NCBI GenBank assembly: GCA_947594595.1
Contig: CANQEE010000004.1
Coordinates: 1-38,868, forward strand
Length of the DNA: 38,868 nt
Direction of reading: 5' to 3'
From: an uncultured Bacilli bacterium
Lineage (GTDB): Bacteria > Bacillota_I > Bacilli_A > RF39 > UBA660
Part shown: positions 12,720-24,177 of the stretch, one piece after another
Position numbering within the stretch: the stretch's first letter is position 1
Layout: each line of letters starts with the position of its first letter
Translations under genes and position numbers: made by a program
Notes under the pieces: model-generated
Told to the model about the DNA's origin: nothing
Database searches by the model: none
What the model saw: only the letters and a program-made list of their open reading frames with translations

Positions 12720-12740
12720 AAACCTAGTTTTAAAACAAAT

Positions 12741-12940
12741 GCGAAAGACGGGAATAAATAGAGCTTTTAAGAGACCTCTTGGATGGTGAAAAAGAGGAAG
12801 TAAATTTATTTCGGATCACTTTCAAGTGTGCTTTATGGAAAAGATAAAGCCGTGCTCTACGTTATGGAGAATAAGATAGATATCTATGAATGAAGGTGGT
12901 ACCACGAACGAAACTCGTCCTTCAGACATAGATTTTTTTT
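12741..12940 (+). ncRNA. T-box riboswitch, Ile specifier (ATC), upstream of ileS
   Basis: This leader senses uncharged tRNA-Ile and lets transcription continue into ileS. Stem I is closed by GAAAG (12743-12747) and CTTTC (12819-12823). The specifier ATC (12815-12817) stands just before the A that precedes the closing strand. The distal-loop GGTG lies near 12784. The T-box motif GAAGGTGGTACCACG is at 12892-12906. The terminator arm pairs ATCTATG..TGAAGG (from 12884) with CCTTCA..CATAGAT, followed by eight T's (12933-12940). The ileS start follows after AGGAGG. Gene and specifier agree, which confirms the call. Confidence 0.93.
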
Positions 12941-12953
12941 GTAGGAGGTAATG

Positions 12954-15900
12954 ATGACAAAATTCAAATCATTAAAGAAAGGATCCATTCATGAATTAGA
13001 GATGGATGTACTCAAATATTGGGAAAGTGTTGATCTTTTAAAACGTTCGATTGAAACAAGAGAAGGATGTGAAAAGTTTGTTTTTTATGATGGACCTGCA
13101 ACTGCGAATGGACATCCTGGAATTCATCATATGATGGCAAAATTTCTAAAGGATACTTTTTGTAAGTATGAGACCATGAAAGGAAAGCAAGTTTTTCGAA
13201 AAGTAGGATGGGATACACATGGGCTTCCTGTAGAATTACAAGTTGAAAAAATGTTAGGTTTTCATAGCAAAAAAGACATTGAAAACTATGGAATTTTACC
13301 ATTCAACCAAAAATGTAAAGAAAGTGTTTGGGAGAACGAAGCTTCTTTTTCACGTCTTACAAAAGAAATGGGGCAAGTGATTGATCTTGCTAATCCCTAT
13401 GTAACCTATGATAATAATTATATTGAGACAGAATGGTGGATTTTAAAGAAATTTTATGAAGAAGGGTATTTCTATTTAGGACACAAGATTCTTCCCTTTT
13501 GTACTCGTTGTGGAACAGGACTTGCATCACACGAAGTAGCCCAAGGCTACAAAGAAATTACAGCCAATACTGTCATTGTTCCTATGAAGAAGAAAGGGGA
13601 AGATGTCTATTTCTTAGTATGGACAACAACGCCTTGGACATTGCTTAGTAATGTAGCACTTTGTGTAAATCCTAAAGAAGAATATGTGCTTGCAGAAAGC
13701 AAAGGGAATCAGTTTATTGTAGGAAAAGCTCTTGCTTCTAAAGTATTAGGAGAAGGATACAAAGTTTTAAAAACATATCTTGGAAAAGATTTGGAATATA
13801 TGGAATATGAACAGTTAATTCCAGAACTTTCTGTTTCCAAAAAGGCTTTTTATGTCACTTTAGCTGACTACGTTACAATGGAAGATGGAACTGGAATTGT
13901 TCATATTGCACCTGCTTTTGGTCAAGATGATTACAATGTAGGAAAAGAATATGATCTTCCTGTTTTAAATCCAGTATCAGAAGATGGAACGTATAACGAA
14001 GGTCCTTGGAAGGGAAAAAGTGTTTTTGAAGTTGATGTAGAGGTCATTCAATACTTAAAAGAAAATGGAAAGCTTTTTAAAAAAGAAAAACTACTTCATA
14101 ATTATCCACATTGTTGGAGATGTGATACACCCCTTCTTTATTATGCAAAACCAAGTTATTATCTTGCTGTTACAAAAATGAAAGATAAAGTGATTGCAAA
14201 TAATAAAACAGTCAATTGGTATCCTTCTTATGTTGGCGAAAAACGTTTTGGAAATTGGCTTGAAAATATGAATGATTGGGCAATCTCTAGAAACCGATAT
14301 TGGGGAACACCTCTTCCTTTATGGCAATGTAGTTGTGGACATGAGGAGATGATTGGAAGTAGAGAAGAGTTAGCACAAAAAGCAACTTGCAAAGTGGATG
14401 TAGAAACCATTGATTTGCATCGCCCATATGTGGATGAAATTTTCTTAAAATGTCCAAAGTGTGGAAAAGAAATGCACCGTGTTCAAGAAGTTATTGATTG
14501 TTGGTTTGATTCTGGTTCCATGCCTTTTGCACAATATCATTATCCTTTTGAAAATCAAGATTTTTTCGAACAACAATTTCCAGCAGACTTTATATGTGAA
14601 GGAATTGATCAAACAAGAGGTTGGTTTTATACGCTTTTATTGATTTCTACGTTTGTAAAAGGGGTAAGTCCATATAAGAATGTTTTAGTCAATGATTTAA
14701 TTCAGGATAAATATGGAAAGAAAATGAGTAAATCCAAAGGAAATATCGTAGAACCTTTTACAACAATGGAAAAGTATGGAGCAGACACTGTTCGTTTCTA
14801 TTTGGCCTATGCTTCTCCTGTTTGGACACCCCTTCGTTTCGATGAAGAAGGATTAAAAGAAGTGTATTCCAAGTATATTTCTACTTTTAAAAATGCATAT
14901 TCTTTCTTTGAAATGTATGCGAATGCAGATGCGATAGATCCAAGAGAGTATGACATTGCTTATGAAAAAAGAAATCTTATAGATCAATGGTTACTATCAA
15001 GACTTCATCAATTGATTCAAGAAGTACAAAATGCTTATGATAGTTATGATCTTACCAAAGCAACTCATGCTATTCTAGACTTTTTAAATGACGATTTCTC
15101 AAACTGGTATATTCGAATGAATCGTCGTCGTTTTTGGGCAAGTGAACTGACAGAAGATAAGAAATCTGTGTATCTAACAACCTATGAAACACTACTTACC
15201 CTGACCAAGTTAACAGCGCCAATCACACCATTTGTAAGCGAAGAAATTTATCGAAATTTAACAGAAAAAGAATCTGTTCATTTGGAAAATTTCCCAGAAA
15301 AAGAAAAGCGTTATATCCATCCTGAAATTGAAAAGAGAATGGAACTTGTTCGTGATGTTTGTAGTTTAGGTCGTTTTGCACGAGAAGAAGCAAAAATCAA
15401 AGTACGTCAGCCTCTTGCTAGTATTTTGCTTCCTAAAGAGAATGAAAAAGAAATTGGTATTTTGGAAACATTTATTAAGGAAGAACTCAATGTCAAAGAA
15501 ATTCATTATGAAGAAGATATGCATACATACATTGATTATCGCCTAAAACCAAATTTCAAAGTCGTTGGAAAACAGTTAGGAAGTAAAATTAAAAAATTCC
15601 AAGAAGCACTTTCTAGTCTTGGAATAGATGCTTTAGAACAAATTAAAAAAGGTACTTTCTCTGTTTCTTTAGAGGGAGAAGAATTAAAAGTCACAGAAGA
15701 GATGGTTGTGGCTACTTTGGATGTAAAAGAAGGTTATTTTGCTCAAAGTAATCAAAATACAACTGTCGTTCTAGATACAAATATTACAGAAGAATTATTA
15801 TTGGAAGGTTATGCTAGAGAATTTGTACGAAAAGTCCAAAGCCTCCGAAAAGAAAAAGATTTTGTTATTACAGATCATATTCGTATCTACTATCATGGGG

Positions 15901-16046
15901 ATGCTATGATTAGTAAAACGATTGATCAGTTTAAAGACTATATTCAAGGAGAAACTCTTGCAGAAGAAATGATAGAAATAGGAGAATACAATGTAGAATA
16001 TTTCTTAAATGACTTAAAGGTAAGTATAGAAGTTGAAAGATTATAA
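12954..16046 (+). CDS. ileS: Isoleucyl-tRNA synthetase, eukaryote-like type (IleRS2), with GIHH signature
   Basis: This is a class Ia synthetase of about 1030 residues that attaches isoleucine to tRNA-Ile. It has the features of the longer eukaryote-like IleRS2 group: WDTHGLPVELQVEK, HEVAQGYK, and a C-terminal domain beyond the anticodon-binding region. KMSKS is at 591-595 of the track protein, and several CxxC pairs (CTRC, CWRC, CPKC) are present. The HIGH motif is replaced by GIHH (track residues 57-60), the first and third positions being swapped. A connecting (editing) domain lies between. The track start ATG 12951 is only two bases from GGAGG; the next ATG, 12954, has five-base spacing and is preferred. 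IleRS2 enzymes are known for mupirocin resistance. The gene is controlled by the Ile T-box and followed by its own terminator. Confidence 0.96.
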   Translation: MTKFKSLKKGSIHELEMDVLKYWESVDLLKRSIETREGCEKFVFYDGPATANGHPGIHHMMAKFLKDTFCKYETMKGKQVFRKVGWDTHGLPVELQVEKMLGFHSKKDIENYGILPFNQKCKESVWENEASFSRLTKEMGQVIDLANPYVTYDNNYIETEWWILKKFYEEGYFYLGHKILPFCTRCGTGLASHEVAQGYKEITANTVIVPMKKKGEDVYFLVWTTTPWTLLSNVALCVNPKEEYVLAESKGNQFIVGKALASKVLGEGYKVLKTYLGKDLEYMEYEQLIPELSVSKKAFYVTLADYVTMEDGTGIVHIAPAFGQDDYNVGKEYDLPVLNPVSEDGTYNEGPWKGKSVFEVDVEVIQYLKENGKLFKKEKLLHNYPHCWRCDTPLLYYAKPSYYLAVTKMKDKVIANNKTVNWYPSYVGEKRFGNWLENMNDWAISRNRYWGTPLPLWQCSCGHEEMIGSREELAQKATCKVDVETIDLHRPYVDEIFLKCPKCGKEMHRVQEVIDCWFDSGSMPFAQYHYPFENQDFFEQQFPADFICEGIDQTRGWFYTLLLISTFVKGVSPYKNVLVNDLIQDKYGKKMSKSKGNIVEPFTTMEKYGADTVRFYLAYASPVWTPLRFDEEGLKEVYSKYISTFKNAYSFFEMYANADAIDPREYDIAYEKRNLIDQWLLSRLHQLIQEVQNAYDSYDLTKATHAILDFLNDDFSNWYIRMNRRRFWASELTEDKKSVYLTTYETLLTLTKLTAPITPFVSEEIYRNLTEKESVHLENFPEKEKRYIHPEIEKRMELVRDVCSLGRFAREEAKIKVRQPLASILLPKENEKEIGILETFIKEELNVKEIHYEEDMHTYIDYRLKPNFKVVGKQLGSKIKKFQEALSSLGIDALEQIKKGTFSVSLEGEELKVTEEMVVATLDVKEGYFAQSNQNTTVVLDTNITEELLLEGYAREFVRKVQSLRKEKDFVITDHIRIYYHGDAMISKTIDQFKDYIQGETLAEEMIEIGEYNVEYFLNDLKVSIEVERL

Positions 16047-23923: not shown

Positions 23924-23939
23924 AACATTTGAAAACGTG

Positions 23940-24137
23940 GAAGAAGAGAAGTAGTGATATTCCTATCTTGTAGAGAGTTTGCAAATGGGTGAAATGCAAA
24001 TAGATATATATCATGAATAACACTTCAGAGTGCTTAAAGAAATCAAAAAGAAAGTAGACTAAGTCGGGACCTAGGCCGTTATCCTAGAAAAAGTGATTTT
24101 CCAACTTTGGAGAATAAATTGGGTGGTACCACGGGTA
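23940..24137 (+). ncRNA. T-box riboswitch, Asn specifier (AAC), upstream of gatCAB-asnS-aspS
   Basis: Stem I closes through GAAG (23948-23951) and CTTC (24023-24026). The specifier AAC (24019-24021) stands just before the A that precedes the closing strand, the same register as ATC in the ileS leader. The distal loop GGGTG lies between TTTGCA and TGCAAA arms (about 23978-24000). A mid-leader hairpin CTAGG..TCCTAG follows. The T-box motif GGGTGGTACCACG is at 24121-24133. The leader would let the operon be transcribed when tRNA-Asn is uncharged, which fits an operon with gatCAB, asnS and aspS. Confidence 0.9.
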
Positions 24138-24177
24138 GAAGTTCTCGTCCCTTTGAGGGATTAGGACTTCTTTTTTT
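24138..24177 (+). terminator. Regulated terminator of the Asn T-box
   Basis: GAAGTTCTCGTCCCT and AGGGATTAGGACTTC pair over 15 positions with a single mismatch and two wobbles around a TTG loop, followed by seven T's. It lies just after the T-box motif and is the default structure when tRNA-Asn is charged. Confidence 0.9.

Follow-up and report, generated by a model that had tools for sequence, protein, structure and literature searches.

The class I signature HxGH of isoleucyl-tRNA synthetase (IleRS) has a described non-canonical counterpart, in which the first and third positions are swapped. In the set analysed by Brkic et al. (2023, PMC10485003), this G/AxHH motif, whose first residue is Gly and rarely Ala, occurs in 86 of 163 type 2 enzymes (IleRS2) and never in type 1 (IleRS1), and at least two origins of GxHH were reported. 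In class I synthetases, the first His of HxGH has an important role in catalysis, and the swap kills IleRS1 but is tolerated by IleRS2 (PMC10485003). The GxHH IleRS2 enzymes are active and have millimolar Ki values for mupirocin; in three IleRS2 enzymes, exchanging the motif in either direction moved the Ki some two to three orders of magnitude, and IleRS2 with GxHH showed a Ki raised roughly 200-800 fold with activity kept (PMC10485003). The D. radiodurans ALHH enzyme has a Ki of 6.6 mM at normal activity (PMC10485003), and the S. griseus enzyme, which bears the same non-canonical GxHH motif (PMC10485003), has a Ki of 10 mM and is reported to have lost the EG motif (PMC4861432). An earlier note on the DNA described here had pointed to active type 2 enzymes with GxHH that are extremely resistant to mupirocin, and this literature bears it out. 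Firmicutes, Mollicutes and Tenericutes are not named in the main text of PMC10485003.

We analysed a window of 38,868 nucleotides (the whole stretch of DNA under study) that encodes an enzyme of this kind in a family of uncultured gut Bacilli. The gene and its first signature are:

12951..16046, + strand: ileS, encoding a type 2 isoleucyl-tRNA synthetase of 1031 amino acids (P0001), assigned from TIGR00392 and the best solved relatives
13119..13130, + strand: non-canonical class I signature GIHH, residues 57-60, placed by alignments and by the helix start in the structure model

The protein matches TIGR00392, an equivalog model, with 945.9 bits against a cut-off of 621.4. Its best solved relatives are the Priestia IleRS2 structures 8c8u, 8c8v and 8c8w, together with 8c9d, and phmmer gave 957 bits to Priestia IleRS2 as opposed to approximately 392 to Priestia IleRS1. 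The alignment with 8c8w extends to residue 1004 of P0001 and residue 1002 of 8c8w, and P0001, at 1031 residues, has the long C-terminal domain found in type 2 enzymes, which total about 1030 residues. An AlphaFold model (mean pLDDT 89.0, pTM 0.78) retrieved the Priestia IleRS2 structures as top Foldseek matches, including the hyper-resistant GVHH mutant 8c8w. The phmmer scores, the tree and Foldseek all place P0001 among the type 2, eukaryote-like enzymes, as the earlier note had proposed. PDB 8wnd, considered as a GxHH enzyme, was rejected because it is yeast IleRS.

The codons GGA ATT CAT CAT read Gly-Ile-His-His, within the sequence PATANGHP-GIHH-MMAKFLKD. GIHH aligns without gaps with the HVGH (wild type) or GVHH (8c8w) site of the Priestia IleRS2 structures 8c8u-8c8w, and also with the HxGH of relatives of both types; in these alignments, no HxGH lies elsewhere at the HIGH position of P0001. 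In the model, the motif follows strand 42-46 and begins helix 58-76, where class I enzymes have HIGH, so that G/A-x-H-H stands at the start of helix alpha-1 in place of H-x-G-H. The swapped signature is thereby confirmed, including against the GxHH enzyme 8c8w; the span first given for it, 13117-13130, began within the preceding Pro codon and is corrected here to 13119-13130. All five same-genus genomes searched encode an IleRS with GIHH or GLHH, 82-93% identical to P0001, so that neither sequencing error nor chance accounts for the motif.

The gene is the sole ileS found in a search of the assembly containing the window (1.04 Mb, 70 contigs, 97.45% complete); weaker matches are related class I synthetases on contigs C14, C5 and C1 and short fragments. 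Upstream of it lie the elements of an Ile-type T-box:

12730..12925, + strand: T-box leader (RF00230; cmscan 84.9 bits, E 3.7e-19, full model 1-219)
12815..12817, + strand: specifier codon AUC (Ile), followed by AC, from its position in the Rfam alignment
12882..12940, + strand: terminator, an ATCTATG..CATAGAT stem around the T-box UGGU (12897-12900) followed by eight T, read from the sequence, with the stem present in the predicted fold
12943..12948, + strand: ribosome-binding site AGGAGG, read from the sequence

The leader score is slightly under the Rfam gathering score of 93, though the match is full-length. Homologous leaders precede ileS in six relatives (69.8-90.4 bits), and leaders over the Rfam threshold were found at locus L059 (108.5 bits) and in Acetoanaerobium (139.7 bits). 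The string AUCAC is kept in all eight aligned family leaders, with AUC assigned as the specifier by alignment, and the antiterminator bulge UGGU, read from the alignment, fits a discriminator A. With leader, Ile specifier and UGGN element all in place, the normal T-box control described in the earlier note is supported. The spacing of AGGAGG favours the second ATG (12954) as the probable start of ileS, and many relatives align from residue 2 onward only. The GC content of ileS (0.32-0.35) is inside the range of its surroundings, and we saw nothing in the neighbourhood pointing to a resistance island. Elsewhere in the window, a serpin-family protein (PF00079; 21000-22604, - strand) is encoded in this gut bacterium, whose genome is of 1 Mb, and another strong T-box leader (129.4 bits; 23929-24155, + strand) lies just upstream of gatC and the genes that follow it.

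P0001 is thus one more member of the published GxHH IleRS2 kind, and the trait is not special to the source organism. It shares the type 2 architecture, the swapped first and third positions, the presence of KMSKS and the status of sole chromosomal ileS with the S. griseus GxHH, D. radiodurans ALHH and Priestia GVHH (8c8w) enzymes of that set (PMC10485003); it differs in belonging to an uncultured gut Bacilli family and in having Asp582-Leu583 beside the active site. Two further active-site features enter this comparison:

14691..14699, + strand: Asn581-Asp582-Leu583, on the adenine and mupirocin side, at the position of HGF in type 1 and LGH in most HxGH type 2 enzymes (alignment columns)
14721..14735, + strand: canonical second signature KMSKS, residues 591-595 (alignment)

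The sequence of P0001, its type, single copy, leader and conservation are direct observations; by homology to solved and assayed enzymes, this sole housekeeping IleRS2 is very probably also active and hyper-resistant to mupirocin. Under this explanation, His59, at the third motif position, would stand in for the absent first His in catalysing the formation of Ile-AMP, while its bulk beside the adenine and nonanoate site would clash with mupirocin and push the Ki towards millimolar; expression would be set by the Ile-specific T-box leader. This is presumably the published mechanism, and the GIHH finding in itself probably adds little that is new. The published values for GxHH and AxHH were obtained with distant enzymes (Deinococcus, Streptomyces) and with engineered mutants, and the true Ki of P0001 could differ from them because other determinants vary among type 2 enzymes: P0001 keeps the EG motif (residues 550-551) and has Asp582 where type 1 and canonical type 2 enzymes conserve Gly. 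Position 583 corresponds to the Phe of type 1 HGF and, in Priestia IleRS2, to the reoriented His582. It is Leu or Met in every GxHH row with a letter there and Phe or Trp in type 1; among the HxGH type 2 rows, 11 have His and 4 have Leu. Asn119 and Asp631 almost completely split the GxHH enzymes (family, Acetoanaerobium and Bacteroidota) from HxGH type 2. Leu/Met583, Asn119 and Asp631 are therefore candidate accommodating residues for GxHH, drawn from few independent lineages.

The nearest named relatives of P0001 come from metagenome-assembled genomes (MAGs) of uncultured gut Bacilli, in keeping with the gut-type organism that the earlier note had supposed. The closest belong to the 'Lapin' series, a name that suggests a rabbit source; others are poultry and ruminant MAGs and Candidatus Onthousia. 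Counted from alignment columns, all 124 family rows classed as the type 2 kind of P0001 have G[ILV]HH, these rows being partly redundant between collections. Over the family as a whole, GxHH is carried by nearly all type 2 enzymes, and the motif is under strong conservation. In the same class but outside the family (f8, f16 and f20), type 2 enzymes have HxGH where readable, with the exception of one f16 enzyme (L157, genome G196), a type 2 IleRS with GMHH and RFSKT. A phylum-wide DNA pattern for P-G-x-H-H was not used for counting; it gave unconfirmed matches outside the family, many of them in f7, and some of its matches resemble what we take to be the GLHHLV motif of GyrB. GIHH also occurs in plasmid-filed records of Riemerella, Bacteroides and Prevotella. 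The IleRS2 of Acetoanaerobium noterae (NZ_CP154629.1, L161) resembles P0001 in GIHH, KMSKS, Asn581-Asp582-Leu583 and a T-box leader, but is only 55% identical and belongs to the class Clostridia; on the tree it is sister to the family's type 2 clade. Since GxHH is found throughout the family, in Acetoanaerobium and in the Bacteroidota records, it is evidently not rare in gut bacteria.

This distribution bears on the origin of the motif. GIHH could be a neutral lineage trait, inherited from a GxHH ancestor common to Clostridia such as Acetoanaerobium and giving an active, incidentally resistant enzyme without ever having been selected for mupirocin resistance, which gut anaerobes need not meet. 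We regard this account of the origin as evenly balanced between true and false, and it is compatible with the above explanation of how the enzyme works. It agrees with the fixation of GxHH across a whole gut family, with its occurrence in Bacteroidota and Acetoanaerobium, and with an inherited gene in a neighbourhood that gives no hint of a resistance island; it leaves unexplained the two or more reported origins of GxHH (PMC10485003) and the alternation of enzyme types within the family. At least eight family genomes (G007, G010, G020, G040, G087, G133, G147 and G372) have type 1, and the IleRS type changes at least five times when mapped on an rpoB tree that covers 26 members of the family. 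On the IleRS tree, the family's type 1 enzymes group together (SH-aLRT 100), separately from the class relatives sampled, and its GxHH enzymes make up another clade. Genomes sampled from the rest of the class mostly matched at type 1 level only; together with the alternation within the family, this indicates that displacement or differential loss has happened.

The alternation is often seen in a single gene slot. Directly after genes for two short proteins that we read as SepF and DivIVA, type 1 occupies the slot at L178 and L179, a KIHH type 2 enzyme at L183, and GxHH enzymes at L059, L061, L063, L109, L112 and others; the Acetoanaerobium ileS has a sepF/divIVA neighbourhood, and the ileS of the window and of its 93% identical neighbour lie outside the slot. 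Because both types occur in the same slot, the pattern suggests either differential loss of two ancestral copies or in-place replacement. The impression in the earlier note of no recent transfer stands at the genus level, where inheritance is vertical and GC content is like that of the surroundings; at the family level, where type 1 and GxHH type 2 alternate, it needs qualification. One f8 genome carries both ileS types; its type 2 copy (L150; G076:C1:1037884-1040946) contains an internal TGA and is possibly a decaying second ileS.

It is highly improbable that the window's gene is a recently transferred resistance determinant of the MupA kind. MupA, the staphylococcal plasmid ileS2, is likewise a type 2 IleRS and confers mupirocin resistance; the 143 staphylococcal plasmid records that match, of which those listed are annotated MupA, show that type 2 IleRS can move on plasmids, and the type switching at family level would also fit. 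However, MupA has a canonical HTGH, is a plasmid-borne second copy and is only about 43% identical to P0001. P0001 scores 937 bits against the NCBIfam MupA cut-off of 1900 and is the single ileS of its genome, which rules out its being MupA itself; moreover, the gene has a native T-box, ordinary GC content and orthologues in all genus mates, and no plasmid record is more than 55% identical to it, the top one being an Acetoanaerobium record of 2.6 Mb that is filed under plasmids. Just as implausible is a synthetase that is catalytically impaired or a pseudogene, its host relying on another enzyme for Ile-tRNA: the importance of the first His and the loss of IleRS1 activity on swapping would allow it, but the genome search found no other ileS, the 1031-residue frame is intact, GxHH and the other catalytic residues are conserved, and IleRS2 tolerates the swap (PMC10485003).

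Thus, P0001 is best read as an active, probably hyper-resistant housekeeping enzyme, and the statement in the earlier note that the organism carries resistance overstates what is a family-wide housekeeping state. This case suggests that a single-copy housekeeping gene can have target-based hyper-resistance to mupirocin as its ordinary state throughout a family of gut bacteria, and ileS resistome calls should therefore read the HIGH motif rather than only seek MupA. The family also offers natural near-neighbour pairs (type 1/type 2 and KMSKS/KMHKS) for testing the rearrangement of class I signatures.

The second of these pairs arises because KMHKS replaces KMSKS in 52 of 123 GxHH IleRS2 sequences (about 40%; 122 from the family plus Acetoanaerobium). 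Examples from family f1 are L016, L018, L019, L021, L063, L065, L069, L071, L077 and L093, among others; P0001 itself combines GIHH with KMSKS and Ile599. L059 and L065 are natural near-neighbours, the former with KMSKS and Ile599 and the latter with KMHKS and Ala599. The codons involved, AGT/AGC/TCT and CAT/CAC, are two base changes apart, and at least nine KMSKS/KMHKS changes occurred on a gene tree built without those columns. KMHKS was paired with Ala599 (in place of Ile, six residues further on) in about seven of eight independent pairs and almost never the reverse (sign test, median p 0.016, an optimistic value since residue 599 was chosen after a scan of all positions), and it also goes in step with loss of K590; short-tract recombination of the loop could mimic the coupling with Ala599. 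A search for KMHKS in the paper collection consulted returned no relevant paper. It is conceivable, albeit doubtful, that the KMHKS His cooperates with the displaced His of GxHH, either in activating ATP or in keeping out mupirocin-like inhibitors, and that both signatures were remodelled as a coupled unit. Other signature variants were seen as well. Two g46 genomes (G279 and G165; L155, L156, L182 and L183) have as their only ileS match a diverged type 2 IleRS with KIHH and KFSKT, in which the initial Lys lies outside the published G/AxHH range, and further type 2 variants of KMSKS are KMSKH in two f8 genomes (L145 and L150) and KMSKR in three Bacteroidota (L164-L166).
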